Shown piece after piece: positions 11,731-60,624 of a DNA stretch of 64,000 bases. Location: contig CM056744.1 of the NCBI GenBank assembly GCA_029851415.1, positions 64,102,172 through 64,166,171 of the forward strand. Direction: 5' to 3'. How positions within the stretch are numbered: position 1 is the stretch's first letter; every line of letters starts with the position of its first letter. Both the position numbers and the translations under genes were made by a program. The stretch comes from Eretmocerus hayati. Taxonomy: Eukaryota > Arthropoda > Insecta > Hymenoptera > Aphelinidae. The notes beneath the pieces are model-generated. The model did not search any database. It saw nothing but the letters and a program-made list of their open reading frames with translations, and was not told where the DNA came from.

Positions 11731-12075
11731 AAAATGGAGTTTTTGTTTATCCATAAAAATGTTTCGCTATTTTTTGCGTTAGTGTTTGGGGAAAGCTTTT
11801 AAACGAGATTTGGGCCATCTAGACTGAGGTTTTTTCGATGATTTCTATCGTTTGGTCGAGACAAAATTTCGATGGAGTGAGTTTAAAGATGATCAAAATC
11901 GAGTTTTTGTTTATCCATAAACATGTTTCGCTATTTTTTGGGTTAGTGTTTGGGGAAAACTTTTAAACGAGATTCGGGCCATCTAGACTGAGGTTTTTTC
12001 GATGATTTCTATCGTTTGGTTGAGACAGAATTTCGATGGAGTGAATTTAAAGATGATCAAAATCGAGTTTTTGGT
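11731..12075 (+). repeat. 164-bp tandem satellite, right block
   Basis: Continuation of the 8571 array after the LINE. GGGCCATCTAGACTG occurs at about 11812 and 11976, again 164 bp apart. The array stops near 12075, just after GATGATCAAAATCGAGTTTTTG. Confidence 0.96.
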
Positions 12076-15665: not shown

Positions 15666-15718
15666 GTAAGTATCTAGAACATGTACTGATTAGAAGAATG
15701 CAAATGAATATATATATA

Positions 15719-16514: not shown

Positions 16515-16541
16515 TATATATATATATATATATATATATAT
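16515..16541. repeat. TA microsatellite
   Basis: Alternating TA between two transposable elements. Confidence 0.95.
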
Positions 16542-29237: not shown

Positions 29238-29723
29238 CGCATCGCCAGAAGGTATATTGAAGAATTTTTGTTTTTTGGATACACCTCAGCGAGGTATAAC
29301 TTTGAAAGTATGGCAAGGTGACCCTACATTTATCAAGCACAACCTCCAAAGAGAGATTTCGATTATGAAAAGTTCCCTAAATATATTCAGGCACAACTTC
29401 TTGACATTGAAGTGACAATTGAATAATTATATCAATATGAATCGATGTCAACCAACAATTGATGCACGACAGCTCGATAGAAGGTATACATCTTTACCAG
29501 CATTACACTCGTGTTATAAAGACAGACACCGGCCTCAAGCAGGACGCGTTTCCATCGAATACACCTCACCGATGTATTTTTGGAAGGACGGCGACGCATC
29601 ACCACGAAAATTTTTTAACAAATCCGTAAGAATTAAGCGATATGTTGATTAATTATGCAACGTTCCATCAAAATTCAACTAATATTCCAAACACGCAGCA
29701 AGCAAAGAAATGAAATCTGACAA

Positions 29724-30200
29724 CAGGTTTCAAGTCTGGTGCGTCGTTCCAATACAATATTGTGCTCACAGTTATTAAATTTATTCAGATAAAACGATTT
29801 TCCAAAAAAATTACGCAATGTTCGATCAGAAATCAACTAACCGTACAAACGGGCAGCAAGGAAAGGAATCAAATCCAACAACAGGTCTCAAGTCTGGGGC
29901 GTCGTTCCAATTCAATATTGTGCTCACAGTTATTAAATTCATTTGCAAAAAATGGATTTCACAATAATTACGCAATGTTCCATCAAAAATCAACTAACCG
30001 TCCAAACGAGCAGCAAGGAAACAAATGAAATCCAACAACAGGTCTCAAGTCTGGGGCGTCGCCCCCAATACAAAATTGTGCTTAAAGCTATTAAATTTAT
30101 TGTTACTTGGTATCATTTTGGGAGTATGGACAGGACCAGTTACCTATTGCTAACTAAATTGACGAATCAAAACTATAGGCACTGTGATATTAAATCTGAA
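29724..30200 (+). repeat. About 158-bp tandem repeats in foldback D, left arm
   Basis: CAGGTYTCAAGTCTGG occurs at 29724, 29882 and 30039, giving a 157-158-bp period. The mirror array lies at about 35109-35585 on the minus strand. Repeated ATCAACTAACCGT-type words cause the similar open frames seen here. Confidence 0.88.
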
Positions 30201-31050
30201 TGTACATTTGCGATTGAATAGTCATGCAAGGGATGCCTGGAAAGTATGGTTGGGTTTATAGTCCGAGAGCCAGTGAATTTTTTCGTGCTGCTATTTATCA
30301 ACGATAAAAATTGTGGACTATCATCATTTGAGGTCCAACGAAAACAAAAACCGATTGCTGCAAGTCGGAGGTTGGGGGCCTGCTCGGTAATCGCGTTTGG
30401 GACTTGTCGTAAAATATGACCTCCCGACAGAAATTTATCAACGCTAGAACTTATTTTTCCTTGCTATTTGAGCAAAGTTGAGATGAAAAAAACATTGCTG
30501 CAGCCCCGTAGCCGGGGTTAACCTCTACTGCCAGCAGTGCAAACATGTAAAAAATGAAGCTGATCTGCTGTTATTTATCATAGCTGGAATTTTGTGTAGA
30601 GCTAGATCGTACCTCAAAGATCTCAAAAATACTTTGCTGCAAGCTCTTTGGTGGGGGAGAACGGATGCTGCAGCTCCTAAAAGTGGTACCTACCCAGTGT
30701 AGCTGTAGGTTTGTTTACTGCATTTCGCAGTTGTATCCTTCTTCAATCGGATGCAGAAATGGATATCCCGAAGTAAATTTCGACGCTCAATCAGAATACA
30801 AGACTATCTTTCACATTGGAAATCTCCCGAAGTGCAAATCTTACAATTTTTCCTCATTTATCGGGTCGCAGTAGAATTCTAACACGTCAAAAAAATTTTT
30901 GCCAACATCTTTGACTGGCATCGATTTGTTCGAATGTAGGCGACGAAGTCAATTCTGCAAATTTAAGTCCCTGGATTGGCGAGCAAAACATCTTCCTTAG
31001 TACTCAAGGGTGCTGAGTATGAACTCGAGACCATATGAATGCAAATTTTA

Positions 31051-31976
31051 CACTACCGGTCAAGAGTTCAAGCTCACCCAAAATTTTTTTTTAATCTCGT
31101 GAGTTGAACCACTTGGCTCTATTCGAACGTGGAGGGCCCTTCTAGAGCTCATTTTGAAGGTTTTCTCACGTACTCTGAGATGGCATTATCCATTTTTATC
31201 CACGCGGATCGAGATCTTTACAATTTGAGCTTGAAGGAGTGTCAATTCCGACGATTTTTGAGAGAATCTTTTGGCTCATGCCAATTTGAGCCAAAATGAA
31301 TGTTTCAATATGAAAATTGTGAGATACAAAAGGACAAGTCTAGATCTTCAAAATTCGTTTTTCAACGTCCCTCTACGCCACCTCTAGTCCGACCTATGAC
31401 ATTTACTGTGAGGGGAGATTTCTCGCAAACAATAGCATTCCAATTCGAGAGAGATACAGAGGTGCATATTTTATGGAGTATAATTATCATTTCTATTATT
31501 TATCATCTATATCTTGATCAACAAAACGAGAAATCTTTGAAATATGCGCCAAAAAGTGAATTTACTCGTCATTTTCTTTAATACAGGTGCTAGTCTTTGC
31601 GAAAAATCTTCCCTCAGAGAAAATGTCATAGCTCGGACTAGAAGTGGCGTAAAGGGACGTTCAAAAACAAATTTTGAAGATCTAGACTTATACTTTTTGC
31701 TCTCACAACTCCCATATTGGAACATTCATGTGGCTCAAATTGGCACGAGCCAAAAGATTCTCTCAAAAATCGTCGAATTGACACTTTTCCAAGCTCAAAT
31801 TGGAAAGATCCCGAGTCGTGTTGATAAAAATGAATAAAGCCATCTTGGAGTACGTGAGAAAACCTTCAAAATGAGCTGTAGGAGAGTCTTCTACGGTCAA
31901 ATAGAGCCGAGAGTAGCTCAACTCGCAAAGATGAAAAAAAAAGTTTTGGATGAGCTTAAACTTTTGACCGGTAGTG
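31051..31976. mobile_element. Tc1/mariner-type foldback nested in foldback D
   Basis: The ends CACTACCGGTCAAGAGTT and its complement (TTTGACCGGTAGTG, ending 31976) are flanked by TA (31049-31050, 31977-31978). The arms match over most of the 926 bp, for example 31300-31440 against 31590-31730. TA target site and CACTACCGGTC ends fit the Tc1 group. No transposase. Confidence 0.85.
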
Positions 31977-32098
31977 TAATTTCAATAATTCTCTGAGCAA
32001 TCCATCGTGGTGTCCAAACTCACTGAATAATCTATCAAGGATCTCTCTTAGAATTCTGCGGAAACCATATGAGATTCGTTGATCGTTATAAAGCATCT

Positions 32099-32650: not shown

Positions 32651-33059
32651 TAACGCCTATTCTTTTAGGTAGCTGCTAGCGACCAAGACTTTGTTTTGAT
32701 TTGTCTCTATGCGGTGGTAGGAACAGATGAAAGCGATCTTATGCACTTTATCGACGATTTACATTATTCTCTTTGTTCTTTTCCTTCGAGGAAAATTCAG
32801 ACATTTCGCTCATTTTCAAAGTCTCGAGGCAAGCATTCTAAAGAAGATCCTTGATAGAATATTCAGCGAGTTTGGATGCCACGATGGACTGCTCAGAAAA
32901 TTATTGAAATTAAAATTCGCACTCAGAAGGTCTCGAGTTCAAACTCGTAATAGGTAGTTAAATTACCCTCGAAATTCGATCACTAAGTGGCTAAACTCAG
33001 TACAACACGACGTTTGTGGGTTCAAACCATAGGTAATACATTCAATGTTCGATATTAAC

Positions 33060-33840
33060 AAGAATTATTGTTTAAAAATTGGGGCGCGGTATAAATAAAC
33101 AATGAAAACATGCATTTTTTGACCTTTTTCTCGGTTTTTCCACCATAAGTCGGAAAATATCAATTTTTTGAGAAAATTAGTAGAATAACTTTTGGTAGAT
33201 CTTTCAAAGATCTACAAAGTTGATCTGGACACTTTTCCTCGCAAACTGTAACCCTTTGGAGTTATTCTTCATCAAAGTCAAAATCGAATTTGTTTAAACA
33301 AATCCACTGAAATTGTTTGTAACGGTCTCAAACCATTTTTCTAAGATAATTCAGCGAATTTGGAGCAAAAGAGATCTCTAGATATTTTTGCCTAAACTTG
33401 ATCGTTTTCGAGTAATGGGAATGGCCAATTCCGCGACTCGCAACCCTCAATGCGGCGCTTTCATGAATGCACTTAGGGCTGCAAGTCGCGGAATTGGCCA
33501 TTCCCATGACTCGAAAACGATCAAGTTTAGAAAAAAATATCTAGAGATCTAATTGCTCCAAATTTACTGAATTATCTGAGAAAAATAGTTTGAGCCCGTT
33601 ATGAACAAATTCGGCGAATTTGTTTAAACAAATTCAATTCTTACTTTGATGATGAATAACTCCAAAGGGTTGCAATTTATGAAGAAAAGTGTTCAGATGT
33701 ATTTTGTAGATCTTTCAAAGATCTACAAACTTATTTTCACGAATATTCGATATTTTCCGACTTATTTTGGAAAAACCGAGAAAAAGGTCAAAAATGCATG
33801 TTTTTATTGTTTATTTACACTGCGCCCCAATTTTTAAACA
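33060..33840. repeat. Central hairpin of foldback D
   Basis: AAATTGGGGCGC at about 33076 pairs with GCGCCCCAATTT at about 33821. The stem runs in to GGCCAATTCCGCGACT, and the loop is about 33447-33480. Arms of about 380 bp have scattered mismatches. Confidence 0.9.
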
Positions 33841-36071
33841 ACAATTCCAGTTAATATCGATTATTGGAATGTATTAACTATTGTTTGAACCCACAAACGT
33901 CGTGTTGTACCAAGTTTAGCCACTTTCTCGCGCCAGGAGCGTCTTTTGGAAGATAATTTAACTACCTATCAGCACCCTTGAGTACTAAGAAAGATGTTTT
34001 GCTCGCCAATCCAGGGACTTAAATTTGCAGAATTGACTTCGTCGCCTACATTCGAACAAATCGATGCCAGTCAAAGATGTTGGCAAAAATTTTTTTGACG
34101 TGTTAGAATTCTACTGCGACCCGATAAATGAGGAAAAATTGTAAGATTTGCACTTCGGGAGATTTCCAATGTGAAAGATAGTCTTGTATTCTGATTGAGC
34201 GTCGAAATTTACTTCGGGATATCCATTTCTGCATCCGATTGAAGAAGGATACAACTGCGAAATGCAGTAAACAAACCTACAGCTACACTGGGTAGGTACC
34301 ACTTTTAGGAGCTGCAGCATCCGTTCTCCCCCACCAAAGAGCTTGCAGCAAAGTATTTTTGAGATCTTTGAGGTACGATCTAGCTCTACACAAAATTCCA
34401 GCTATGATAAATAACAGCAGATCAGCTTCATTTTTACATGTTTGCACTGCTGGCAGTAGAGGTTAACCCCGGCTACGGGGCTGCAGCAATGTTTTTTTCA
34501 TCTCAACTTTGCTCAAATAGCAAGCAAAAATAAGTTCTAGCGTTGATAAATTTCTGTCGGGAGGTCATATTTTACGACAAGTCTCAAACGCGATTACCGA
34601 GCAGGCCCCCAACCTCCGACTTGCAGCAATCGGTTTTTGTTTTCGTTGGACCTCAAATGATGATAGTCCATAATTTTTATCGTTGATAAATAGCAGCACG
34701 AAAAAATTCACTGGCTCTCGGACTATTAGCTGAATCGGCAAAGTTCAGCGTCGTGTTCGCGCGTGAACGCCATTTTGCAATCAATGTCAATGTGATTTTT
34801 CGTGAAAATTCTATTTTTTTTCTAATTTTTGATATACATCGGGCCGTGAATAAATTCCCCTCGTCGGTATGTGGTACTAGGGTAAGGTTCCGCTAGGTTG
34901 GGCCGTATAAAAATTATTGTGTAAATTGTATTATATGTGTATAATTAGCATTATTGATTAGAAAACGAGCTTCAAAAAATTTTTAAACTTTGTTGATCAT
35001 TGATCAATTAACCATCAAACAAATGAAGAGCATGATAGATAGATATGTTATTTTATTTCCATATATTGGTTTCGTATTAGAATTATTTCTCATCGTAACG
35101 ACTTCTGAAAAATCTTCACTATTGAGTCCAAAAGTGGATGCACATACAATGCATGATATTTGAAATTCGAAGTATTTCGATAACTCCCTCGTTATCTGTT
35201 TTATCCAAATAAATTTAATAGCTATAAGCACAATTTTGTATTGGGGGCGACGCCCCAGACTTGAGACCTGTTGTTGGATTTCATTTGTTTCCTTGCTGCT
35301 CGTTTGGACGGTTAGTTGATTTTTGATGGAACATTGCGTAATTATTGTGAAATCCATTTTTTGCAAATGAATTTAATAACTGTGAGCACAATATTGAATT
35401 GGAACGACGCCCCAGACTTGAGACCTGTTGTTGGATTTGATTCCTTTCCTTGCTGCCCGTTTGTACGGTTAGTTGATTTCTGATCGAACATTGCGTAATT
35501 TTTTTGGAAAATCGTTTCATCTGAATAAATTTAATAACTGTGAGCACAATATTGTATTGGAACGACGCACCAGACTTGAGACCTGTTGTTAGATTTCATT
35601 TCTTTCCTTGCTGCGTATTTGGAATATTAGTTGAATTTTGATGGAACGTTGCGTAATTAATCAACATATCGCTTAATTCTTAAGGATCTGTTAAAAAATT
35701 TTCGTGGTGATGCCTCGCCGTCCTTCCAAAAGTACATCGGTGAGGTGTATTCGATGGAAACGCGTCCTGCTTGAGGCCGGTGTCTGTCTTTATAGCACGA
35801 GTGTAATGCTGGTAAAGATGTAAACCTTCTATCGAGCTGTCGTGCATCAATTGTTGGTTGACAGCGATTCATATTGATATAATTATTCAATTGTCACTTC
35901 AATGTCAAGAAGTTGTGCCTGAATATATTTAGGGAACTTTTCATAATCGAAATCTCTCTTTGGAGGTTGTGCTTGATAAATGTAGGGTCACCTTGCCATA
36001 CTTTCAAAGTTATACCTCGCTGAGGTGTATCCAAAAAACAAAAATTCTTCAATATACCTTCTGGCGATGCG

Positions 36072-39517: not shown

Positions 39518-39523
39518 CCTACT
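39518..39523. repeat. Polinton target site duplication, left (CCTACT)
   Basis: CCTACT directly precedes the element terminus AGTAGTAATGG and is repeated exactly after the right terminus at 54026. Six-base duplications are the rule for Polinton/Maverick integration. Confidence 0.93.
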
Positions 39524-39769
39524 AGTAGTAATGGTACCCAATGTCCAGACAGAGGGGTGGGGGAAGTCACGTGGTATTGTGGGCGTGGCGACGGGGGTGT
39601 TAACCCGTTACCCGTGATTGATCGATCTTTGGGGGGATTAAGAGGGGTTATTAATGGGTCGATCAATCACTTTTGACGCACCCTACTTTTTTTTTTTTTA
39701 AAACAAAAATAAATGAGAGGATGTGCTTATGCACGCATTAGCTATACATAGCTTGTCGCGTGCATACAC

Positions 39770-39772
<3 letters not shown>

Positions 39773-39853
<81 letters not shown>

Positions 39854-39869
39854 TTTCTCTCTCTCTCTC
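39773..39869 (+). repeat. CT microsatellite in left arm
   Basis: About 40 CT units followed by mixed CCCTCTTTCTCTCT. The right-arm counterpart (about 53680-53775) differs by a T insertion and about one fewer unit. Leu/Ser-repeat open frames here are artefacts. Confidence 0.95.
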
Positions 39870-40170
39870 ACTCTTACCTTCCTATACTTCTCTTCGGCAG
39901 CTGCACTGGCACTCGGGGATGTTGGCGGGAAAGCGGCGTCGTCTTTTCGCGCCGATGCTGGACGCGTGTTACAGCCTAAACCTCTATTTCTCTCTCACTC
40001 TGTCGCACTCACTCTACCTACCTAACTTACTATACTCCTCTTCGTGCGGGCGAGCTGTGGTGCGCTATATACGTTGACGCTTGATGCTGGAGGGAAAGCG
40101 AGGAAAGCGGCGTCGTCTTTTTGCGTCGATCTTGGACACTTGGCTACCCTACGTTGCTCATCTCAGCTAT

Positions 40171-40187
40171 GCGCGCACATCCACACC

Positions 40188-40227
<40 letters not shown>

Positions 40228-40228
40228 C
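40171..40228 (+). repeat. CA microsatellite in left arm
   Basis: CACACA run interrupted once by AAACAC. Its mirror GT run is at about 53322-53379. His/Thr-repeat frames across it are artefacts. Confidence 0.93.
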
Positions 40229-40689
40229 CTCCTCGTGTCCTGTACCCAAATTTCTCTCTTTCCTCGTGTCATTGCATAACTAAGCTCATGCCGTGCGGCA
40301 AAGTTACGCACTCTATATTTTCAGAGCGCGCCCGCACACTGTAGGTTAGTATACTGCGGATCTTTCTCTTTCTATACAATACTCTATGCAGCGCGCATCT
40401 ATGCTATAGGAATTGAAGTGGCTGACGGGAAAGCGGTGCAGTTTGCGGACCGAGGGGTTTTTCGCACCGAATTATACCGTCGCGCATCTTATACATATAC
40501 GCATACGTATATTCTCTCTCTTTCTTGCTCGCTCCTTCGCATGCCTTCTCGCTCTCGCTGTGCCGACCTTTCTCACATTCGTAAACATTGCGATATTTGT
40601 GAGGGCGGACGGGAGTCAGAGTGCGTGTACGTGACGGACGGCAAATTTTGCGCGCATCTCGATCCCTTGGCTAGAATATCGACATAGCA

Positions 40690-41760
40690 GGTAAGTATAT
40701 CTTATGCATGTACGAAATAGATGTCGCATAGTTGGAGCAAAAGTAAGTATATTTCAGCAAAGGACGAGTGATGCATGCGTTGCTTCACGGTCAGTTGCAC
40801 TTATTTTCGCAAAGGTCAGTATAGGATCGGACATCCGTAAGTGTACAGCGGAAAAGTATAGTGTGAAAATAAGATGAGCAGCAGCAACAGCACGGCAAAG
40901 GCATCGACGCTGCTCCAATTTGACCTATTTGGGGAGGAAAAACGTGATACATGAGATACAAACCCGTTTATTCCTGCACCGTCGAGGGGTGTGAGAATCG
41001 AGATGGGGCCCATGTGGTCGAGCCCGCTTCGTGGGGTGAGTGACAGCAACACGTGGGCGCAAGAGCTCTCGATCGCCCGATCGATGCGCTCGTGAGCAGT
41101 AGATCATGCGTACCACCTTGATTTATGTTTAACGGGTGTGCAGCCAAGTAGCTCTCACGTAGCATCGACGTTATTTGAGAAGTCACCATGGCACGTCGAG
41201 TGCTCATTTATTTTAAGTAAGCTTTGACGTTAAATCTAGGATGTCTCTCGATCGAGATTAATGGTTACTAGTGAAACTACTGCATCCATATACTGCAAGT
41301 TTTATTTTTGAACTTTTTAACGGATGCATTGGGGTGAGCATCGCTAGGGGTACAGGACACTTTCAATCACAAATATATCAACGGATGCGTCCTTTGAAAT
41401 TTTAGTTAAATCCAAAATGTCTTTCGAGTGAGATTGATGGTTACTCGTGAATTACTGCTTCTATGTACTACGAGTTTTATTTCGAATCTTGTAACGAGTG
41501 CATTGGGTGAGCATTGCTAGCGGAGGGGACGCTTTTAATCACAAATATAGTAACGGATGCGTCTTTTGAAATTTTGAACAATATTTAATGCACACCGACG
41601 TAAAATTACTGAAACAAGTTCAACTTTTGTGAATTTTCTATTAATCAATGGCATAAATTTTCTTCGAAAATGGTGAATGAAATTTTGTATGATGAATGAG
41701 AGATGTATAAGGATAAATGAAAATCCAACACTGTGATTCATTTAAATATCGTCGTTATTA
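40690..41760. other. Terminal non-coding region of the Polinton arm with 176-bp duplication
   Basis: Within 41225-41580 two diverged units about 176 bp apart share ATGTCTYTCG, TGATGGTTACT-like and CACAAATATA words. No gene is convincing between the terminus and 41762. Short open frames at 40816-41207 overlap each other on one strand without motifs. Confidence 0.65.
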
Positions 41761-41761
41761 T

Positions 41762-42604
41762 TCACATTTCTTGAGATTCTTCGATACAATATAGCTGAGC
41801 ACAGCGATTATGAAATACAGCGTAATGGTACAGAATCATTTCATAAAATACGATTTCAAAAATATCTCTCACAGTGGGATCGCGAGTATAATCGTATTTT
41901 TTCAAAACATCACCTCTAATTTGCTCTTTTTTCTCGCTGAACAAAGTCCGCACGACGTCTAAGCTGTTGGATGCGTGAAAGTCGACCTGCTGCTGGATCG
42001 TATCCCTAGTGACCTCGTGGATCATATGTCTCATGTTGTTGACGTCGATCACTAAATTTGTCAAGCGCTTGTACTGCTCCTTGATCAATATTTGGATACG
42101 TCGTAACCCCTTGAATGTCACCTCTTGCATAGTGATTGTTGATTTGAGAGATTTCCTCCTCTTTTCTTCTGGGCTGTATGCCTCGTCCAAATTGTCATCT
42201 TCCATAGTAAGAACCACGCTCTTGCGCGAATAAGTTGTCGTCAAAATAATATCGAAGTTCGACATCTGAATCTTAAGAGGCATCACCTCAGACGGCGTCG
42301 ATTTACGGCTGAAGAAATCGGCAATTTCTCCGAATTTCTTCTCGAACTCTTCCCAGCTTTCAAAATTGAATCTCACTCTTGACGTACCAGTCTTGCTCAC
42401 GATCAGAATCACTGGTCTGTATTGGGCAGTTGCACTAGTAAGGCCGAAGTCCTCGAGTCCAATCATGACTCTCTTGGAGCCAGAATCGTTGAGATCATAT
42501 GAGCTGCACAGCAATAGAGGCAAATCCACATCTTTCACTGGGAGAGATGTACACATCGGAGACACTCGGGCACTCTCTTGTTGTTGAAGCATCGCTTCAG
42601 CCAT
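41762..42604 (-). CDS. Polinton-encoded protein of unknown function, left copy
   Basis: A 280-residue intronless frame, ATG at 42604 to stop at 41762, transcribed away from the polymerase gene across a 480-bp shared upstream region. I do not recognise the family. Visible features are a central FNFESWEEFEKKFGEIADFF segment, a charged EEKRRKS stretch near residue 155, and a helical, aromatic C-terminus (FYEMILYHYAVF). No signal peptide, zinc finger or catalytic motif is evident, and it does not look like capsid, ATPase, protease or integrase. An intact reading frame in both arms suggests recent function or recent duplication. Confidence 0.8.
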   Translation of the reverse strand: MAEAMLQQQESARVSPMCTSLPVKDVDLPLLLCSSYDLNDSGSKRVMIGLEDFGLTSATAQYRPVILIVSKTGTSRVRFNFESWEEFEKKFGEIADFFSRKSTPSEVMPLKIQMSNFDIILTTTYSRKSVVLTMEDDNLDEAYSPEEKRRKSLKSTITMQEVTFKGLRRIQILIKEQYKRLTNLVIDVNNMRHMIHEVTRDTIQQQVDFHASNSLDVVRTLFSEKKEQIRGDVLKKYDYTRDPTVRDIFEIVFYEMILYHYAVFHNRCAQLYCIEESQEM

Positions 42605-43082
42605 TTTCTACACAGATTTCACTAGGGTCACTGTACAATAACAATTGACTATAGCTTTCCCGGCGGAAGCCCGTTTGTGACAAGCGAAAGGGTATGATGT
42701 GGTATAGGCGGCTCCTAGTCAGAGACTGGACCCCCATGGCGTTAAAGAGTTCGTTGGCATCTCTCAATTCAAACTATTAGGGTACAAAGGGGTGGGAGGA
42801 AATTTGATCCAGTCGGAAAAGTCGTGGGCGGAGCTTCCTAGGTCCATGACACCAGGGGTTGGCGCTCGTAAAAATAGGAAATTGATCAAGATCCATATGA
42901 GAGTAGCGTTACGACGTGGTAGTGGGGGTAAGAGGACTAGGCAAGCGCGCTCTCATTCGTATGCCATATGAGGGTGTGAGGGGTGTACAAATTCGTGAAT
43001 GAGATAAACTTATTGAGATGCTACTTGGCTCAAAGAGGGCGAGTTCACTTCAAGTTGAGCTTTCTTACTGATAACTTCGATC
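42605..43082. promoter_or_regulatory. Divergent intergenic region between the two Polinton genes
   Basis: About 480 bp separates the start codons of the 280-residue gene (minus strand) and the first polymerase-gene exon candidate (plus strand), so both promoters should lie here. I see no unambiguous TATA box. The mirror copy is 50468-50945. Confidence 0.45.
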
Positions 43083-43417
43083 ATGGATGATTCTCAACAG
43101 GACGAGAGTCTGCTGCGCGAGCTGGGCGAGTATTACGCTATGCGTGAGTATTCTACGTTTAATATTCATCTTGAATCGAAAGACGGATTGAAACACGAAT
43201 TTGCTACAATATCCAATCATGTGCAGGCCGTGAAGATGGGATATACAATGTGACCCATACTCCCGAACCCCAAGACGAGGACCGTCAAGTTGAGGAGTCT
43301 TATTTCCAAGACTTTGCTGATATTTCTTTTCTCCAATCAGGCGACGGTGATAACATCGCCGCTGACCAAAGTTCAACATATCAAGGTGAATTTCCAACGC
43401 AGCGATGTCTGTTGTAG
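43083..43417 (+). CDS. Candidate 5' exons or upstream ORF of the polymerase gene
   Basis: ATG at 43083, donor GTGAGT at 43144, acceptor GTGCAG ending 43226 (83-bp intron). The spliced frame then stays open to a TAG at 43415. It overlaps the ATG at 43405 of the next frame by 13 bases in another phase. It is either a small acidic protein of about 83 residues, an upstream ORF, or the true N-terminus if a 32-base segment (43386-43417, GT...AG, phase-compatible) is removed, which would be unusually short for an intron. The mirror copy is at 50133-50467. Confidence 0.45.
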
Positions 43418-44221
43418 CCGATAACGAACAACTCCTAATTTATGCGATTGACTTAGATTTCAGACCTCTATTGATCAGCTCGCCAGAACGCTCAGATTTC
43501 ATACCGATCTCCGACAGCGAACTGCAAGATCGCATTCATGCGTCGAGACGGGTACTCTATGAGAGGGTACCAACTCCGACCTTCGAAGACCTCCTGCCGA
43601 TCCTCACGCCCCCAGGGTTCCCTCCGTCTACTGCCGGAGACCAAGTGTCAAATTGTGCCTGGCTTAGTGAGAGTGGTGGAGTTTCAACTTGTGACAGTGC
43701 GGTATTTACTCAAGATAGGGTGTGTCAAAATGAATGTGAATCGCAAAGTGCTGTGGGTGAATCAACGGAGCATCCACCGGCAAAGAGGCGAAAAAAATCC
43801 TCGGGCGATGACTCTTCAAAGGGATGCAACGACTACTGTGATGATAATAACGAATCGATGAGCGGCGATTATTCAATGGAAATCGACAACGAGGCTTCGG
43901 CTGGAAATTCGTCAATGGATATCGATACCTCTGTTGCTGAACCCGAGGAGGAGGAGGCAATGTCGTCCGCTGTTGCAACTCAATCGCAGGAAGCGATGGA
44001 TATCTCCACCATCGATAGCATCAGTGATAACCAAGACACGACGAATGGCGATCAAAATTACGAAAGTGACCAACCCGAAGCAAATGAGTCGATGGGTGTC
44101 CAAGAAGGGCAAAACGAAGTGACGGACTCAAGCTCCGATGACACGCACAGTGGGAACCCCGGCGATGCGAGTGATGCGTCTGTGGTACTACTTCATGAGG
44201 AAGACGAAATCGACATCAACG
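43405..44221 (+). CDS. Acidic N-terminal exon spliced to Polinton polymerase, left copy
   Basis: The frame from ATG 43405 has about 272 codons before a perfect donor (AACG|GTGAGT at 44222), where it otherwise stops at 44238. The protein is rich in Asp, Glu and Ser, with a basic patch PPAKRRKKSS that looks like a nuclear localisation signal. The phase-1 donor matches the acceptor TTCTTTCGTTCAG ending 44443, joining it in frame to the polymerase exon. This points to one long mRNA that encodes an acidic leader region plus polymerase. The role of the leader is unknown; in protein-primed systems a terminal protein often precedes the polymerase. Confidence 0.65.
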
Positions 44222-44443
44222 GTGAGTCATTTTATTAACTGATCGGCATGTATTGGGGCACGCGGTTGTAGATTATAATGGGGAATTTTTAATTTTCAAG
44301 ATCTTCCCGATTTGGAGAGAACCGAGGAGTTTGAGGCTTTTCAATTACTCTTAGCACTTTTCTAGAAAAACAATTCCCATGGATGCTGTAGCTTTCGTGT
44401 ATCATTCAAGATCGTATATCAATTGCGTTTTTCTTTCGTTCAG
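44222..44443 (+). other. Intron in Polinton polymerase gene, left copy
   Basis: 222 bp from GTGAGTCATT to a pyrimidine-rich CTTTCGTTCAG. Donor and acceptor are both phase 1. The mirror intron is 49107-49328. Confidence 0.7.
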
Positions 44444-47352
44444 TACATTCAAATGAGAGATCGAGCGATCGCGCCGACGGTGCTAATGAACCAGAAATGC
44501 CTCAACAACAAGTACAAGAGCCAGTACACCAAGAGCAACAACAACGACCCGTTATCCCTGTCATCCAGGCTGGTGGTGGTGGAGGCATGGAATATCGATA
44601 TATAGATATAATAAGTAGCGCTCCGTGTTTCAATAGACTATTTCGTACTTCTGCAGAGCAAGTAAGATTCCGATTCAGACCATCGATATACGATGACGGT
44701 CGTCCATACGAAGCTCTCGCGGAAGGGCTCAGAGAAATTCATCATAGAATTACTAATGGTTTTGCAAGCAACGATTGGATAGGTATAACAATGAATTCAA
44801 TCACGTTTCGGTACGGTGAGGCGTGGTTTGTCTTTCGGAGAGTTCAAGATTTTGACTATCATGATATATGGGCACTGTTCTATAGCATAGCACAGAGTAA
44901 TGAGGGTTTTCGCATAGATGGCACTGTAGAATTAATTGCAACGCGAGTGCAGGAACCACGCGGCGCCGGTGCGAGCGATAAAGTTAAGATCGAAGTACTG
45001 TCTAAACATTCGGTATTGTTCATTAGAAACTTTGACGATGATTTGTGTTTACCTAGAGCCATCGTTTGTGGATTGAAATATAATTGCCAGAAGTCGAAAG
45101 ATTTGAAGAGAAACAAAGAATGGGGTAATTTTGCCAGAGATGTACGCGGTGTACAGAAACGCGAAGCGCAGAAATTGTGCGACGATGCGGGTGTTGCCGT
45201 ACCACAGGGCGGTTGTGGGTACGATGAATTCGAAAAATTTCAAGAGCATCTTCAGAGAGTTCATAATGCAGCGCTCGTGGTGTGGATGAAGCCGAGCATC
45301 GCTAACCAAGAGACGCTTTGGTTCGACGGTCGGAAAAAATTCGTGGATGAATCAAAACTTTGGAGCGAACGGGTCGATGTGCTTTACAACGGTGAAAACC
45401 ATTTTGATTTGATTCTGAATCTTGCAGGAATGGTTACTCGTGATGGAAGGTCTAAGTACTACTGTTATCGATGTAGAAAAAATTACCGTGCACCGTTTTC
45501 TCATGCATGTCCGGCAATATGTTCGGGTTGTCACAGCGTGCCGCAGTGTGCAGTCGGTCAAAAAACTCCGTGTAAAGATTGCAATCGAACGTTTGTCAGC
45601 CACGATTGTTATTTGAAACACAAGATACCTGGATCGTATAGCGCTCGTCGGACCAAGAGGGCTCGTAAGACTATATGCGACAATGTCCAGTGGTGTAATG
45701 AATGCATGTACCGATGGGACAAAGCTATTGACAAAAAACACGAATGTAATGCTCGTTATTGTGAAAATTGTAAAACCAAACACAGCAGTAACGCTCAATG
45801 TTATATCCGTAAGCTACAGCCAAACGACGGCCAGAATAATTTGTATGCGTTCTACGACACGGAAACGGAAAGCGAAGAATTAGTCCGCGTGAATCCCGAC
45901 GGTTCGAGTGTTTATCGACATAGGGTAGTTCTCGCTGTTGTCCAATTCGCTTGTAGCAGATGTTTGAACAATCAAAATTTGGATGAGACTTGCGGTGGAT
46001 GTGGCAAACGTCAGCATGTTATAGTCGAGAGAAACGGTAAATCTGTGATGGAGCAATTTCTCGACCTTCTTTTGCGCACACAGAATGGTGAGACGGGTCC
46101 TAACGGCGAAACCATAGCCGAAAAAACGAAATTTAACAAGATTATTGCGGTTGCGCATAACTCAAAAGCATTTGACGGTCAATTTGTTCTTCAAGAATTA
46201 ACGAAACGCCTCGTGAAAGGAGTAACGGATACTCCCCAAGTCATTATGAACGGCCGTAAGATTCTCATGATAGAGTGGGGCAAGTTGCGCTTCATAGATA
46301 GCCTCAGTTACATGCCTATGGAACTGGCTGCACTGCCCAAAGCGTTTGGTTTGACGGAAACGAAAGGATTTTATCCGCACAAACTGAAGTCGACCGATGA
46401 GCGCGGAAACGATGGCCGTTACCCCGATCCCGAAGCTTACGATCCTGGTAGAATGAGCCCCGAGAAGCGCGAAGAGTTCTACACGTGGTACGCTAGCGTG
46501 AGCCACTTGCCTTTCTGCCCAAAAACCGAGTTAGAAGAATACTGCAAACGCGATGTGACCGTCTTACGGCAAGCCTGTATCAAGTTTCGGGAAATATTCA
46601 TGGACGCCACGGGCGTATGTCCCTTTTCGAAGCCGATAACGATCGCCGGTGCATGTTTTGACGCGTATCGAACTTCATTCATGAGCGACCAAGTGATAGG
46701 CGTTCTTCCACGCAGAGGGTACGTGCATGCCGATGAGCAGAGCAAGAAAGCTCTGCAGTGGCTTCTGTGGAGGGAGAAGGAGGATGGGCTGCAGCGCCCG
46801 ATGTTGCACGCTGGGAGGGGGCGAGAGCGTCGAATCATCAAAAATCTGCGCGTCGATGGGTATTATGATCGCGAAATCGATAGAGAAAACGGTTTGGACG
46901 TGAAAGACATCGTGTATCAATTCCACGGGTGTTATTGGCACGGGTGCACAAATTGCTTCGCGAATCGTCAAATGACGTTGCACGATCGACGGACAATGGA
47001 TGCCAGGCGCGAGAGAACAAGGAATATTTCGAGCGAAATAAAAAATTCGGGAAAATACGAATTAGTAGAGATCTGGGAGTGTGACTTCGACAGGACGATC
47101 GCAAAAGATCCACGCTTCAAAGAATTCATGAAACTTCCCCACCCTTGTCTCTCAAAAGTAACGATAAATCCGCGCGAGCCGTTCTACGGCGGACGTACGG
47201 GTAATCTTGTAACGATACGAGAGACGGACGACGACGAGAGTATTCATTATTACGACGTGTGTTCGCTGTACCCGTGGGTTTGTAAATACGGCAAATTTCC
47301 GATCGGTCATCCGCAAGTGTACATGGGCAGAGACTGCTTCGAAATCACATAA
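44444..47352 (+). pseudogene. Polinton-type DNA polymerase B, truncated after motif A, left copy
   Basis: The exon opens in frame from 44444; the first internal Met is at 44497 (951 residues to the stop). This polymerase would copy element DNA from a protein primer. Landmarks by residue from 44497: a DDLCLPRAIV block near 180-190, two Cys/His clusters (about 323-375 and 393-436), exonuclease motifs FYDTETE (452), AHNSKAFDGQF (553) and EYCKRDV (681), a HGCYWHGC block (810) and polymerase motif A DVCSLYP (920). Motif B and the motif C DTDS, which lie further downstream in the family, are missing because the arm junction at 47350 cuts the gene. It probably keeps no polymerase activity. Confidence 0.92.
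46201..47349 (+). other. Unique central segment of the palindromic Polinton
   Basis: 1,149 bp present once, coding in full for the middle of the left polymerase copy (Exo III to just past motif A). At 47350 the sequence turns back into the inverse complement of 46200. The bases TAATTC are shared by both sides of the junction, but the parental sequence beyond is unknown, so I cannot say whether microhomology was used. Confidence 0.9.
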
Positions 47353-49106
47353 TTCTTGAAGAACAAATTGACCGTCAAATGCTTTTGAGTTATGCGCAAC
47401 CGCAATAATCTTGTTAAATTTCGTTTTTTCGGCTATGGTTTCGCCGTTAGGACCCGTCTCACCATTCTGTGTGCGCAAAAGAAGGTCGAGAAATTGCTCC
47501 ATCACAGATTTACCGTTTCTCTCGACTATAACATGCTGACGTTTGCCACATCCACCGCAAGTCTCATCCAAATTTTGATTGTTCAAACATCTGCTACAAG
47601 CGAATTGGACAACAGCGAGAACTACCCTATGTCGATAAACACTCGAACCGTCGGGATTCACGCGGACTAATTCTTCGCTTTCCGTTTCCGTGTCGTAGAA
47701 CGCATACAAATTATTCTGGCCGTCGTTTGGCTGTAGCTTACGGATATAACATTGAGCGTTACTGCTGTGTTTGGTTTTACAATTTTCACAATAACGAGCA
47801 TTACATTCGTGTTTTTTGTCAATAGCTTTGTCCCATCGGTACATGCATTCATTACACCACTGGACATTGTCGCATATAGTCTTACGAGCCCTCTTGGTCC
47901 GACGAGCGCTATACGATCCAGGTATCTTGTGTTTCAAATAACAATCGTGGCTGACAAACGTTCGATTGCAATCTTTACACGGAGTTTTTTGACCGACTGC
48001 ACACTGCGGCACGCTGTGACAACCCGAACATATTGCCGGACATGCATGAGAAAACGGTGCACGGTAATTTTTTCTACATCGATAACAGTAGTACTTAGAC
48101 CTTCCATCACGAGTAACCATTCCTGCAAGATTCAGAATCAAATCAAAATGGTTTTCACCGTTGTAAAGCACATCGACCCGTTCGCTCCAAAGTTTTGATT
48201 CATCCACGAATTTTTTCCGACCGTCGAACCAAAGCGTCTCTTGGTTAGCGATGCTCGGCTTCATCCACACCACGAGCGCTGCATTATGAACTCTCTGAAG
48301 ATGCTCTTGAAATTTTTCGAATTCATCGTACCCACAACCGCCCTGTGGTACGGCAACACCCGCATCGTCGCACAATTTCTGCGCTTCGCGTTTCTGTACA
48401 CCGCGTACATCTCTGGCAAAATTACCCCATTCTTTGTTTCTCTTCAAATCTTTCGACTTCTGGCAATTATATTTCAATCCACAAACGATGGCTCTAGGTA
48501 AACACAAATCATCGTCAAAGTTTCTAATGAACAATACCGAATGTTTAGACAGTACTTCGATCTTAACTTTATCGCTCGCACCGGCGCCGCGTGGTTCCTG
48601 CACTCGCGTTGCAATTAATTCTACAGTGCCATCTATGCGAAAACCCTCATTACTCTGTGCTATGCTATAGAACAGTGCCCATATATCATGATAGTCAAAA
48701 TCTTGAACTCTCCGAAAGACAAACCACGCCTCACCGTACCGAAACGTGATTGAATTCATTGTTATACCTATCCAATCGTTGCTTGCAAAACCATTAGTAA
48801 TTCTATGATGAATTTCTCTGAGCCCTTCCGCGAGAGCTTCGTATGGACGACCGTCATCGTATATCGATGGTCTGAATCGGAATCTTACTTGCTCTGCAGA
48901 AGTACGAAATAGTCTATTGAAACACGGAGCGCTACTTATTATATCTATATATCGATATTCCATGCCTCCACCACCACCAGCCTGGATGACAGGGATAACG
49001 GGTCGTTGTTGTTGCTCTTGGTGTACTGGCTCTTGTACTTGTTGTTGAGGCATTTCTGGTTCATTAGCACCGTCGGCGCGATCGCTCGATCTCTCATTTG
49101 AATGTA
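47152..49106 (-). pseudogene. Polinton-type DNA polymerase B, truncated after Exo II, right copy
   Basis: Mirror of the left gene: the exon starts at 49106, internal Met at 49053. The first 568 residues are identical to the left copy. At 47350 the frame enters the antisense strand of the unique centre and reads about 65 unrelated residues to a stop at 47152. Exo I and Exo II are present; Exo III, motif A and everything beyond are lost. It is clearly non-functional as a polymerase but could still make the N-terminal zinc-finger-like part. Confidence 0.92.
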
Positions 49107-49328
49107 CTGAACGAAAGAAAAACGCAATTGATATACGATCTTGAATGATACACGAAAGCTACAGCATCCATGGGAATTGTTTTTCTAGAAAAGTGCTAAG
49201 AGTAATTGAAAAGCCTCAAACTCCTCGGTTCTCTCCAAATCGGGAAGATCTTGAAAATTAAAAATTCCCCATTATAATCTACAACCGCGTGCCCCAATAC
49301 ATGCCGATCAGTTAATAAAATGACTCAC
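49107..49328 (-). other. Intron in Polinton polymerase gene, right copy
   Basis: Mirror of 44222-44443 with the same donor and acceptor. Confidence 0.7.
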
Positions 49329-50145
49329 CGTTGATGTCGATTTCGTCTTCCTCATGAAGTAGTACCACAGACGCATCACTCGCATCGCCGGGGTTCCCAC
49401 TGTGCGTGTCATCGGAGCTTGAGTCCGTCACTTCGTTTTGCCCTTCTTGGACACCCATCGACTCATTTGCTTCGGGTTGGTCACTTTCGTAATTTTGATC
49501 GCCATTCGTCGTGTCTTGGTTATCACTGATGCTATCGATGGTGGAGATATCCATCGCTTCCTGCGATTGAGTTGCAACAGCGGACGACATTGCCTCCTCC
49601 TCCTCGGGTTCAGCAACAGAGGTATCGATATCCATTGACGAATTTCCAGCCGAAGCCTCGTTGTCGATTTCCATTGAATAATCGCCGCTCATCGATTCGT
49701 TATTATCATCACAGTAGTCGTTGCATCCCTTTGAAGAGTCATCGCCCGAGGATTTTTTTCGCCTCTTTGCCGGTGGATGCTCCGTTGATTCACCCACAGC
49801 ACTTTGCGATTCACATTCATTTTGACACACCCTATCTTGAGTAAATACCGCACTGTCACAAGTTGAAACTCCACCACTCTCACTAAGCCAGGCACAATTT
49901 GACACTTGGTCTCCGGCAGTAGACGGAGGGAACCCTGGGGGCGTGAGGATCGGCAGGAGGTCTTCGAAGGTCGGAGTTGGTACCCTCTCATAGAGTACCC
50001 GTCTCGACGCATGAATGCGATCTTGCAGTTCGCTGTCGGAGATCGGTATGAAATCTGAGCGTTCTGGCGAGCTGATCAATAGAGGTCTGAAATCTAAGTC
50101 AATCGCATAAATTAGGAGTTGTTCGTTATCGGCTACAACAGACAT
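49329..50145 (-). CDS. Acidic N-terminal exon of Polinton polymerase gene, right copy
   Basis: Mirror of 43405-44221 and identical in translation, including the basic PPAKRRKKSS patch and the acidic serine-rich remainder. Candidate upstream exons mirror at 50133-50467. In this arm the joined polymerase exon is even shorter, so the main product would be the leader plus zinc-finger and partial exonuclease regions. Confidence 0.65.
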
Positions 50146-50945
50146 CGCTGCGTTGGAAATTCACCTTGATATGTTGAACTTTGGTCAGCGGCGATGTTAT
50201 CACCGTCGCCTGATTGGAGAAAAGAAATATCAGCAAAGTCTTGGAAATAAGACTCCTCAACTTGACGGTCCTCGTCTTGGGGTTCGGGAGTATGGGTCAC
50301 ATTGTATATCCCATCTTCACGGCCTGCACATGATTGGATATTGTAGCAAATTCGTGTTTCAATCCGTCTTTCGATTCAAGATGAATATTAAACGTAGAAT
50401 ACTCACGCATAGCGTAATACTCGCCCAGCTCGCGCAGCAGACTCTCGTCCTGTTGAGAATCATCCATGATCGAAGTTATCAGTAAGAAAGCTCAACTTGA
50501 AGTGAACTCGCCCTCTTTGAGCCAAGTAGCATCTCAATAAGTTTATCTCATTCACGAATTTGTACACCCCTCACACCCTCATATGGCATACGAATGAGAG
50601 CGCGCTTGCCTAGTCCTCTTACCCCCACTACCACGTCGTAACGCTACTCTCATATGGATCTTGATCAATTTCCTATTTTTACGAGCGCCAACCCCTGGTG
50701 TCATGGACCTAGGAAGCTCCGCCCACGACTTTTCCGACTGGATCAAATTTCCTCCCACCCCTTTGTACCCTAATAGTTTGAATTGAGAGATGCCAACGAA
50801 CTCTTTAACGCCATGGGGGTCCAGTCTCTGACTAGGAGCCGCCTATACCACATCATACCCTTTCGCTTGTCACAAACGGGCTTCCGCCGGGAAAGCTATA
50901 GTCAATTGTTATTGTACAGTGACCCTAGTGAAATCTGTGTAGAAA

Positions 50946-51788
50946 ATGGCTGAAGCGATGCTTCAACAACAAGAGAGTGCCCGAGTGTCTCCGATGTGTA
51001 CATCTCTCCCAGTGAAAGATGTGGATTTGCCTCTATTGCTGTGCAGCTCATATGATCTCAACGATTCTGGCTCCAAGAGAGTCATGATTGGACTCGAGGA
51101 CTTCGGCCTTACTAGTGCAACTGCCCAATACAGACCAGTGATTCTGATCGTGAGCAAGACTGGTACGTCAAGAGTGAGATTCAATTTTGAAAGCTGGGAA
51201 GAGTTCGAGAAGAAATTCGGAGAAATTGCCGATTTCTTCAGCCGTAAATCGACGCCGTCTGAGGTGATGCCTCTTAAGATTCAGATGTCGAACTTCGATA
51301 TTATTTTGACGACAACTTATTCGCGCAAGAGCGTGGTTCTTACTATGGAAGATGACAATTTGGACGAGGCATACAGCCCAGAAGAAAAGAGGAGGAAATC
51401 TCTCAAATCAACAATCACTATGCAAGAGGTGACATTCAAGGGGTTACGACGTATCCAAATATTGATCAAGGAGCAGTACAAGCGCTTGACAAATTTAGTG
51501 ATCGACGTCAACAACATGAGACATATGATCCACGAGGTCACTAGGGATACGATCCAGCAGCAGGTCGACTTTCACGCATCCAACAGCTTAGACGTCGTGC
51601 GGACTTTGTTCAGCGAGAAAAAAGAGCAAATTAGAGGTGATGTTTTGAAAAAATACGATTATACTCGCGATCCCACTGTGAGAGATATTTTTGAAATCGT
51701 ATTTTATGAAATGATTCTGTACCATTACGCTGTATTTCATAATCGCTGTGCTCAGCTATATTGTATCGAAGAATCTCAAGAAATGTGA
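50946..51788 (+). CDS. Polinton-encoded protein of unknown function, right copy
   Basis: Identical 280-residue product to the minus-strand gene at 41762-42604, in the mirror position. Both copies are complete from ATG to stop with no disabling change, in contrast to the polymerase. No family recognised. Neighbouring terminal region and divergent promoter are likewise mirrored. Confidence 0.8.
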   Translation: MAEAMLQQQESARVSPMCTSLPVKDVDLPLLLCSSYDLNDSGSKRVMIGLEDFGLTSATAQYRPVILIVSKTGTSRVRFNFESWEEFEKKFGEIADFFSRKSTPSEVMPLKIQMSNFDIILTTTYSRKSVVLTMEDDNLDEAYSPEEKRRKSLKSTITMQEVTFKGLRRIQILIKEQYKRLTNLVIDVNNMRHMIHEVTRDTIQQQVDFHASNSLDVVRTLFSEKKEQIRGDVLKKYDYTRDPTVRDIFEIVFYEMILYHYAVFHNRCAQLYCIEESQEM

Positions 51789-53322
51789 ATAATAACGACG
51801 ATATTTAAATGAATCACAGTGTTGGATTTTCATTTATCCTTATACATCTCTCATTCATCATACAAAATTTCATTCACCATTTTCGAAGAAAATTTATGCC
51901 ATTGATTAATAGAAAATTCACAAAAGTTGAACTTGTTTCAGTAATTTTACGTCGGTGTGCATTAAATATTGTTCAAAATTTCAAAAGACGCATCCGTTAC
52001 TATATTTGTGATTAAAAGCGTCCCCTCCGCTAGCAATGCTCACCCAATGCACTCGTTACAAGATTCGAAATAAAACTCGTAGTACATAGAAGCAGTAATT
52101 CACGAGTAACCATCAATCTCACTCGAAAGACATTTTGGATTTAACTAAAATTTCAAAGGACGCATCCGTTGATATATTTGTGATTGAAAGTGTCCTGTAC
52201 CCCTAGCGATGCTCACCCCAATGCATCCGTTAAAAAGTTCAAAAATAAAACTTGCAGTATATGGATGCAGTAGTTTCACTAGTAACCATTAATCTCGATC
52301 GAGAGACATCCTAGATTTAACGTCAAAGCTTACTTAAAATAAATGAGCACTCGACGTGCCATGGTGACTTCTCAAATAACGTCGATGCTACGTGAGAGCT
52401 ACTTGGCTGCACACCCGTTAAACATAAATCAAGGTGGTACGCATGATCTACTGCTCACGAGCGCATCGATCGGGCGATCGAGAGCTCTTGCGCCCACGTG
52501 TTGCTGTCACTCACCCCACGAAGCGGGCTCGACCACATGGGCCCCATCTCGATTCTCACACCCCTCGACGGTGCAGGAATAAACGGGTTTGTATCTCATG
52601 TATCACGTTTTTCCTCCCCAAATAGGTCAAATTGGAGCAGCGTCGATGCCTTTGCCGTGCTGTTGCTGCTGCTCATCTTATTTTCACACTATACTTTTCC
52701 GCTGTACACTTACGGATGTCCGATCCTATACTGACCTTTGCGAAAATAAGTGCAACTGACCGTGAAGCAACGCATGCATCACTCGTCCTTTGCTGAAATA
52801 TACTTACTTTTGCTCCAACTATGCGACATCTATTTCGTACATGCATAAGATATACTTACCTGCTATGTCGATATTCTAGCCAAGGGATCGAGATGCGCGC
52901 AAAATTTGCCGTCCGTCACGTACACGCACTCTGACTCCCGTCCGCCCTCACAAATATCGCAATGTTTACGAATGTGAGAAAGGTCGGCACAGCGAGAGCG
53001 AGAAGGCATGCGAAGGAGCGAGCAAGAAAGAGAGAGAATATACGTATGCGTATATGTATAAGATGCGCGACGGTATAATTCGGTGCGAAAAACCCCTCGG
53101 TCCGCAAACTGCACCGCTTTCCCGTCAGCCACTTCAATTCCTATAGCATAGATGCGCGCTGCATAGAGTATTGTATAGAAAGAGAAAGATCCGCAGTATA
53201 CTAACCTACAGTGTGCGGGCGCGCTCTGAAAATATAGAGTGCGTAACTTTGCCGCACGGCATGAGCTTAGTTATGCAATGACACGAGGAAAGAGAGAAAT
53301 TTGGGTACAGGACACGAGGAGG

Positions 53323-53362
<40 letters not shown>

Positions 53363-53699
53363 GGTGTGGATGTGCGCGCATAGCTGAGATGAGCAACGTA
53401 GGGTAGCCAAGTGTCCAAGATCGACGCAAAAAGACGACGCCGCTTTCCTCGCTTTCCCTCCAGCATCAAGCGTCAACGTATATAGCGCACCACAGCTCGC
53501 CCGCACGAAGAGGAGTATAGTAAGTTAGGTAGGTAGAGTGAGTGCGACAGAGTGAGAGAGAAATAGAGGTTTAGGCTGTAACACGCGTCCAGCATCGGCG
53601 CGAAAAGACGACGCCGCTTTCCCGCCAACATCCCCGAGTGCCAGTGCAGCTGCCGAAGAGAAGTATAGGAAGGTAAGAGTGAGAGAGAGAGAGAAAGAG

Positions 53700-53779
<80 letters not shown>

Positions 53780-54025
53780 GTGTATGCACGCGACAAGCTA
53801 TGTATAGCTAATGCGTGCATAAGCACATCCTCTCATTTATTTTTGTTTTAAAAAAAAAAAAAGTAGGGTGCGTCAAAAGTGATTGATCGACCCATTAATA
53901 ACCCCTCTTAATCCCCCCAAAGATCGATCAATCACGGGTAACGGGTTAACACCCCCGTCGCCACGCCCACAATACCACGTGACTTCCCCCACCCCTCTGT
54001 CTGGACATTGGGTACCATTACTACT

Positions 54026-54031
54026 CCTACT
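54026..54031. repeat. Polinton target site duplication, right (CCTACT)
   Basis: Exact repeat of 39518-39523 directly after the right terminus. Beyond it the sequence (GATTTCTCAAACTC...) differs from the left flank. Confidence 0.93.
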
Positions 54032-55666: not shown

Positions 55667-56009
55667 TGTGACGTGGTGAGTCTTGGGCCCCTTGCCCGCG
55701 CCTCACCCCGCCCCATGACGGTTCACCGGCGACGGCTCCGCGAACCGCGCAACACCCTTGCGCTGCTCGATGTCCGTCGCAGGTGCACCGTCAGCGTTTC
55801 TGACGGCGCATCGCGCCTTCCCCCTGAGGTACTAGTTTGCGGTGCGACCCGTCGTCGTGGACGACGAGCCGCGCAGCGGGCAGACCGCTCTGACCAACCT
55901 TAACACTCACTTCACTCTCTCTCGAGCCCTCAAATTATCCTTCTGATTAAAAGTCCATCTATTACATATTTATTCGTGTTCTTTCCGGAAACCCGTTACC
56001 CACGTCACA
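55667..56009 (+). repeat. 5' LTR
   Basis: 343 bp. The first 230 bp are very GC-rich, then the composition falls to the window average. It contains ATTAAA near 55945 as a possible polyadenylation signal. A possible primer site, TGGTGCTAGGTGGGG, begins a few bases after the LTR (56017), but I cannot match it to a specific tRNA. Confidence 0.9.
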
Positions 56010-60281: not shown

Positions 60282-60624
60282 TGTGACGTGGTGAGTCTCG
60301 GGCCCCTTGCCCGCGCCTCACCCCGCCCCATAACGGTTCACCGGCGACGGTTCCGCGAACCGCGCAACACCCGTGCGCTGCTCGATGTCCGTTGCAGGTG
60401 CACCGTCAGCGTTTCTGACGGCGCATCGCGCCTTCCCCCTGAGGTACTAGTTTGCGGTGCGACCCGTCGTCGTGGACGACGAGCCGCGCAGCGGGCAGAC
60501 CGCTCCGACCAACCTTAACACTCACTTCACTCTCTCTCGAGCCCTCAAATTATCCTTCTGATTAAAAGTCCATCTATTACATATTTATTCGTGTTCCTTC
60601 CGGAAACCCGTTACCCACGTCACA
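60282..60624 (+). repeat. 3' LTR
   Basis: 343 bp, matching the 5' LTR with about seven substitutions and no length change that I can see. Followed by ACCT. Confidence 0.9.

Follow-up and report, generated by a model that had tools for sequence, protein, structure and literature searches.

A palindromic Polinton derivative in Eretmocerus hayati and its possible copy-back origin

Copy-back (snap-back) defective interfering genomes of RNA viruses consist of one terminus and its complement, which form a stem around a unique loop. Symmetric adenovirus genomes such as Ad12 SYREC are linear and protein-primed, carry the same end at both termini and depend on a helper; adenovirus genomes derived from inverted repeats were reportedly described by Steinwaerder in 1999. 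The phi29 polymerase is likewise a protein-primed enzyme of the PolB type. For Polintons, or Mavericks, replication as free linear DNA has to our knowledge been inferred from their genes and not seen. Here we describe a palindromic, Polinton-related element of 14,502 bp, at C4:64141695-64156196, in Eretmocerus hayati (Hymenoptera; Aphelinidae). It lies within a stretch of 64,000 nucleotides (nt), C4:64102172-64166171, which we call the window and within which positions are numbered. The study covers one genome, assembled as 692 Mb in 17 contigs, and one palindromic locus, read as assembly sequence.

Vertebrate Mavericks are reported to have terminal repeats of 46-1,447 bp (mean 402) and lengths of 12.7-24.6 kb (PMC8097293). 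Like Polintons and Mavericks as characterized in that report, the element has (AGT)2//(ACT)2 ends, a 6-bp target duplication, PolB and, in a full-length copy, an integrase, and its 14.5 kb falls within their range. These same features bear out an earlier note on this DNA, which had called the element a Polinton. Unlike its described relatives, it has a terminal repeat 6.7 kb long, one half-genome being present twice and the other missing. Because its own repeat of 6,676 bp exceeds the usual Polinton range, although those of its relatives (223-303 bp) fit, the palindrome is, judged by its sequence, a derivative of a Polinton and not a standard member.

The palindrome resembles copy-back defective genomes in having one terminus with its inverted copy, a unique loop and a full-length parent family in the same genome; it has also lost essential genes (447 PolB codons and the integrase half), so that it would need a helper. 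Unlike the RNA-virus genomes, it is DNA, is integrated, and is known from sequence at one locus. The palindrome works like symmetric adenovirus genomes in having the same end at both termini. Those genomes are free, and some come from engineered repeats, whereas the palindrome is chromosomal, has target duplications and contains a natural, blunt join. In adenovirus vectors, inverted repeats are described as leading to replication-induced recombination (PMC2518115). A further likeness is to the inverted chimeras formed by phi29 polymerase during multiple displacement amplification, in which, as PMC1855051 describes them, inverted joins arise when a strand re-anneals to a displaced one, mostly over distances of up to 10 kb. 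Those chimeras are in vitro artefacts whose inverted joins of less than 10 kb are usually complementary, whereas the join in the palindrome is blunt.

Anatomy, integration marks and genes of the palindrome

The left arm (39524-46200, plus strand, 6,677 nt) is the left end of the family's genome, oriented as in full-length copies. The right arm (47350-54025, minus strand, 6,676 nt) is an inverted copy of it, 99.985% identical, and occupies the place of the 3' part of PolB and of the other half-genome. Over the 6,676 aligned bases there are no substitutions, and the sole difference is a 1-nt indel at 39847, within a CT tract at 39775-39874 (plus strand) that is mirrored at 53676-53774 (minus strand). 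The arms enclose a single-copy loop of 1,149 nt (46201-47349, plus strand), which is the middle of the PolB gene. The earlier note had described arms of 6,677 and 6,676 bp, identical outside the CT tract, around 1,149 unique bases, and its coordinates are right to the base.

The element begins and ends AGTAGT...ACTACT, and the note's AG...CT ends and 6-bp target duplication can both be read. Inward from either terminus the sequence is AGTAGTAATGGTACC; the sequence found identically at both ends is AGTAGTAATGG. A terminal-inverted-repeat stretch at 39524-39750 (plus strand) matches both ends of full-length copies and is of the left type; the same stretch recurs at the right end (53799-54025, minus strand), where it is here also of the left type. 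Directly outside the element CCTACT is duplicated, at 39518-39523 and 54026-54031. In a control scan with boundaries moved by up to 8 nt, a 6-bp duplication at the exact ends was present at the palindrome and at none of eight other inverted-repeat loci, the near-misses being one locus with matches of 6-8 nt within an AT run (with shifted ends) and one 4-nt match at a shift of 1. Chance is ruled out by far as the source of the palindrome. The zero divergence, the length and the exact duplication exclude both chance and an ordinary fold-back miniature inverted-repeat transposable element (MITE).

These marks also bear on whether the palindrome is an assembly artefact, in which a fold-back chimeric read or a graph error swapped the right part for a mirror of the left. 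Inverted chimeric reads are described as common in amplified libraries (PMC9484634). However, the right flank is unlike the left one and begins at the exact terminus with the matching 6-bp duplication, left-type sequence extends for 6.7 kb up to that flank, the arms differ by 1 nt, and the 692-Mb assembly has just 17 contigs. We therefore regard an artefact as very improbable.

In the left arm, a 280-aa open reading frame (ORF) is encoded by the minus strand. The arm also contains an acidic 277-aa ORF, and PolB begins in it and continues through the loop. PolB (44497-47352, plus strand) keeps 951 codons and is cut at that point, the first codon beyond the right junction being a stop; two full-length copies have another 447 open codons beyond the site. 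A second copy of the PolB 5' part (47152-49053, minus strand) has the first 568 codons and then runs antisense through the loop. The palindrome's PolB matches PF03175 (E=1.7e-20), which points to a PolB of the protein-primed type in the family, truncated in the palindrome, and is 35% identical to a 1,192-aa polymerase of the wasp Trichogramma kaykai. In the alignment with longer relatives, the cut falls after the stretch that we take to be motif A and before the part with what we take to be motifs B and C.

The 280-aa ORF (41762-42604, minus strand; mirrored at 50946-51788, plus strand) had no homologue at E<=0.001, and its predicted structure, with a mean predicted local distance difference test score of 45, is not usable. 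Searches of viral contigs, a phage collection and solved structures gave no useful lead, and a profile search brought up the same four proteins. The 277-aa ORF (43405-44238, plus strand; mirrored at 49312-50145, minus strand) is fast-changing.

Full-length relatives in the same genome

As single left ends, the arm's first 877 bases are present elsewhere in the genome (best 40 of 64 candidates). Among these, 11 left ends, two of them with an insertion inside, pair with a match in the opposite orientation to about bases 1-227 or 1-277 only, 16-33 kb away. The seven copies read at both ends span 16.2-19.0 kb, five of them 18.8-19.0 kb, and an eighth that bears an insertion spans 21.1 kb. Left and right terminal repeats measure 223-303 bp in five copies, with 88-98% identity; in two further copies the left pieces were compared only to 194 and 221 nt. 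The search for full-length Polintons with the same terminus, which the earlier note had proposed, thus finds them, with short terminal repeats.

A perfect 6-bp target duplication flanks six of these seven relatives. The seventh, C3:170219039-170237895, has none at that boundary, and its flanks have ATGCA in common if one more AGT is assigned to the element. This flank suggests three AGT units at one end rather than two; the extra unit is such as slide-back priming might add, by our presumption.

In one full-length relative, the half that the palindrome lacks contains 10 ORFs. One has an integrase core, rve (E=7.4e-12), plus a chromodomain, and another is the C-terminal part of PolB (E=2.8e-16). 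Matches to Tudor and to the Pox_A32 ATPase (E=0.016) are both weak and below the cut-off. Five of the 10 have no Pfam match, and for one of these five, which was tried, there was no match by sequence to a solved structure. The integrase-bearing half is absent from the palindrome. The claim that the element is one half-genome and its mirror, with the other half lost, agrees with these relatives, which hold the remaining PolB and the integrase half.

At the break site, two full-length copies read ATCACA/GGCGAG where the palindrome reads ATCACA/TAATTC. Thirteen further stretches near other copies were compared: five cross the site unbroken, one has part of the region, one has the outer arm only, and six have none of it (one of these six consists of simple CT repeats only). 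A half-copy, L014, starts 43 nt before the site and continues into the PolB tail. In total, eight copies run uninterrupted past the break site into the remainder of PolB. These data bear on the alternative, raised in the earlier note as one that would refute its reading, that normal members of the family carry 6.7-kb terminal repeats, for which we found no support. For every one of the seven copies with both ends read, similarity of the right end to the left end of the arm is confined to bases 1 to 227-277, the identity of the two repeats is 88-98% (with two of the seven limited by the fetched piece), and the eight copies continue through PolB at the break site. The copies that we examined in this genome refute a family with long terminal repeats, to which we give next to no weight.

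The inner arm was also used to search for further palindromes. All 23 candidates were scored, giving 25 matches at 21 loci, and only the palindrome's own locus has both orientations; none of the 20 other loci is inverted. Since the junction could recur only where the inner arm is inverted, this search gives no sign of a second one. All 34 candidates of a loop search were scored as well. Among the 50 matches listed in a PolB protein search (best 48 of 639 candidates), the only inverted pair less than 50 kb apart is that of the palindrome, with distant families partly covered. The further PolB genes among these matches are more distant (38-65% identity), many with long open frames, and look like those of other Polinton families or relatives.

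The progenitor, the junction and the order of events

Just inside the terminal repeat, the left and right ends of normal copies can be told apart. The left-type tag is found in six of six other left ends with enough sequence (two further left pieces did not reach far enough to be counted), and the right-type tag in seven of seven right ends. The palindrome has the left-type tag at both termini. Nine further stretches gave four left tags, two right tags and three with neither.

Defining as private those positions at which the palindrome differs from four close copies, we found 22 among 7,782, of which 21 are in the arm, and so in both arms, and one is in the loop. When outer positions were checked in 14 stretches, the palindrome's base at 40212, 40271 and 40364 was present in one other copy, a more distant one in two of the three cases. 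A T13 run is common to both arms (7-10 in six other copies), and the longest CT run is 74 and 72 nt in the two arms (18-52 in six others). The nearest of the copies compared, C2:124498093-124519195, has 33 substitutions over the left part. Because both arms carry all 21 private arm changes, the T13 run and the long CT tract, they come from one progenitor, mirrored recently. The same 21 changes make a fusion of two different family members unlikely. With 21 changes before mirroring and none after it, mirroring falls within about the last 7% of the private branch (95% Poisson bound), a figure that sets aside later conversion between the arms.

The private changes are unevenly distributed. PolB has two of the 22, against 8.1 expected by length (P=0.004, in a test picked after the data had been seen). 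Neither alters the protein, and the one change in the 280-aa ORF is synonymous too. Nine of the 22 fall in the 834 bp of the 277-aa ORF (five replacing, four silent), which is fast relative to PolB, and eight in the outer 0.93 kb. Since PolB was spared, it appears unlikely that the element persisted for long as a dead insertion or in palindromic form with a broken PolB; most simply, it was full-length and functional along its private branch. Local hypermutation or recombination may also account for the two hot stretches.

Besides the difference at the break site given above, the bases on the inner side of the junction do not pair, and the join is therefore blunt, with no shared and no added bases; comparison with the two full-length copies at the site excludes a join via a short shared sequence. 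A related copy of full-length size, C1:84816675-84835429 (L063 and L061), is also rearranged: about 1.04 kb of its right end is duplicated in direct orientation, and the extra copy replaces about 1.1 kb of internal sequence. Of the two joins, one is blunt, and five bases, ATTAC, are shared at the other, which lies 4 bases from the terminus. This rearrangement suggests that switching joins occur in the family.

We tentatively propose that fold-back template switching produced a palindromic, defective Polinton genome before integration and that this genome was inserted here recently. A functional full-length member (about 18.9 kb, with PolB in the left half and the integrase in the other) would have replicated as linear DNA, with strand-displacement synthesis starting at the left end. 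Within PolB, at 7,826 nt from that end, the nascent strand would have come off its template and switched to the displaced strand of that molecule at a point 1,149 nt closer to the left end; copying back to this end would have given a product with the left end at both termini. Since the two ends have only the terminal repeat of about 230 bp in common, two left ends would suffice for integration, and integrase supplied in trans by a full-length copy would have inserted the palindrome with the usual 6-bp duplication. As the palindrome is without the PolB tail and the integrase half, its enzymes would have come from full-length copies if mirroring preceded integration. Potential helpers are the copies with long open PolB frames among the matches listed, and an integrase ORF was read in one copy. 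The structure, the family, the left-type ends on both sides, the duplication, the single recent progenitor and the blunt junction are observed; that mirroring came before integration, by template switch and with enzymes in trans, is what we infer from them.

Work with other polymerases offers a partial precedent. With phi29 polymerase in vitro, 406 of 475 chimeras were reported as inverted joins, mostly within 10 kb and favouring one molecule (PMC1855051), and in T7 reactions, switching from the nascent chain to the displaced strand was judged dominant (PMC9484634). Several points nevertheless weigh against our proposal. Among the phi29 inverted joins of less than 10 kb, 93.5% were reported to have complementarity (PMC1855051), and the T7 switches are tied in that account to short inverted repeats (PMC9484634), which the palindrome's 1,149-nt loop does not resemble; its junction has no shared or added bases. 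The linear replicative form would have to be supposed from the family, the PolB test was chosen with hindsight, and the palindrome is a single locus among the 21 with the inner arm, with no second palindromic copy and no sign of moving as a palindrome. The copy-back origin that the earlier note had put forward thus fits the structure, although the absence of shared bases is atypical of re-primed fold-back joins.

The blunt junction fits end joining better than template switching. In that account, two sister linear genomes were broken before integration, one at 7,826 and one at 6,677 nt from the left end, host end joining fused their left halves head to head, and the fused molecule went on to replicate or integrate as in our proposal. 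Sister molecules of one replicating pool would be expected to be identical, as observed, and one of the two joins in C1:84816675-84835429 is also blunt. Yet end joining needs two breaks and a fusion instead of one switch, and two molecules that are identical along 6.7 kb, T13 run included, with CT tracts that differ by no more than 1 nt. We consider it a close rival, slightly preferring the template switch as a single step.

Alternatively, the mirroring may have followed insertion. A normal insertion would have suffered a break in or near the right terminal repeat and lost its right part, and the left arm would have been copied in via the shared repeat, which could prime repair. Such a conversion would preserve both termini and the duplication, and the region is rich in fold-back repeats. 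It must, however, have followed insertion soon, because the PolB private changes are few and both silent; it requires a loss of about 11 kb plus the copying of 6.7 kb, and 0 of the 20 other inner-arm loci is inverted. Chromosomal conversion is in our view improbable. Template switching and end joining taken together make it probable that mirroring preceded integration, and under either of these routes right-type sequence would be dispensable for integration. The earlier claim that the element was integrated as a palindrome stands as to the integration marks; that it was palindromic at insertion is likely but unproven.

Neighbouring repeats, and what the palindrome may mean

The window contains six spacerless fold-back palindromes of at least 800 bp that are 80-92% self-complementary (1499-2425, 3921-5579, 15708-16525, 23865-25733, 31048-31979 and 32950-33969), and four shorter ones besides. 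We take the six to be probably palindromic MITE-type repeats, two of them with Tc1/mariner-like ends. A large inverted repeat (29238-31016 and 33969-36071) consists of two blocks, 98.4% and 99.3% identical, and has two fold-back repeats between its arms. Direct repeats of 343 bp (55667-56009 and 60282-60624, 98% identical) flank a 605-aa ORF without a Pfam match, an arrangement that looks like a long terminal repeat retroelement. At 8568-12073, two arrays of a 164-bp tandem repeat, which match each other at 97-98%, enclose reverse-transcriptase ORFs.

The earlier note had gone further and suggested a parasite lineage of full-length Polintons, with other palindromic copies to be looked for. None was found at the 20 other inner-arm loci. 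As to amplification at a helper's expense, one of the 21 inner-arm loci is inverted; the private changes point to a functional full-length progenitor until recently. The parasite claim is not upheld by these results.

A copy-back defective genome is a known kind of molecule that would be new for Polintons as far as we searched: no palindromic Polinton was found among the titles listed from the literature surveyed, which was largely non-subscription. One may speculate, with more reserve than for the origin of this one locus, that Polintons, as linear protein-primed replicons, make copy-back defective genomes naturally, that their integrase accepts two identical left ends, and that such palindromes are mobilisable by full-length Polintons and could act as defective interfering elements within animal genomes. 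The existence of helper-dependent defective Polintons is a testable prediction. If mirroring came first, integration can do without the right-type end. A palindromic half-genome flanked by target duplications would be a fossil of a free linear stage, implying that a linear free form exists, and the palindrome may preserve a by-product of how Polintons copy and insert their DNA.

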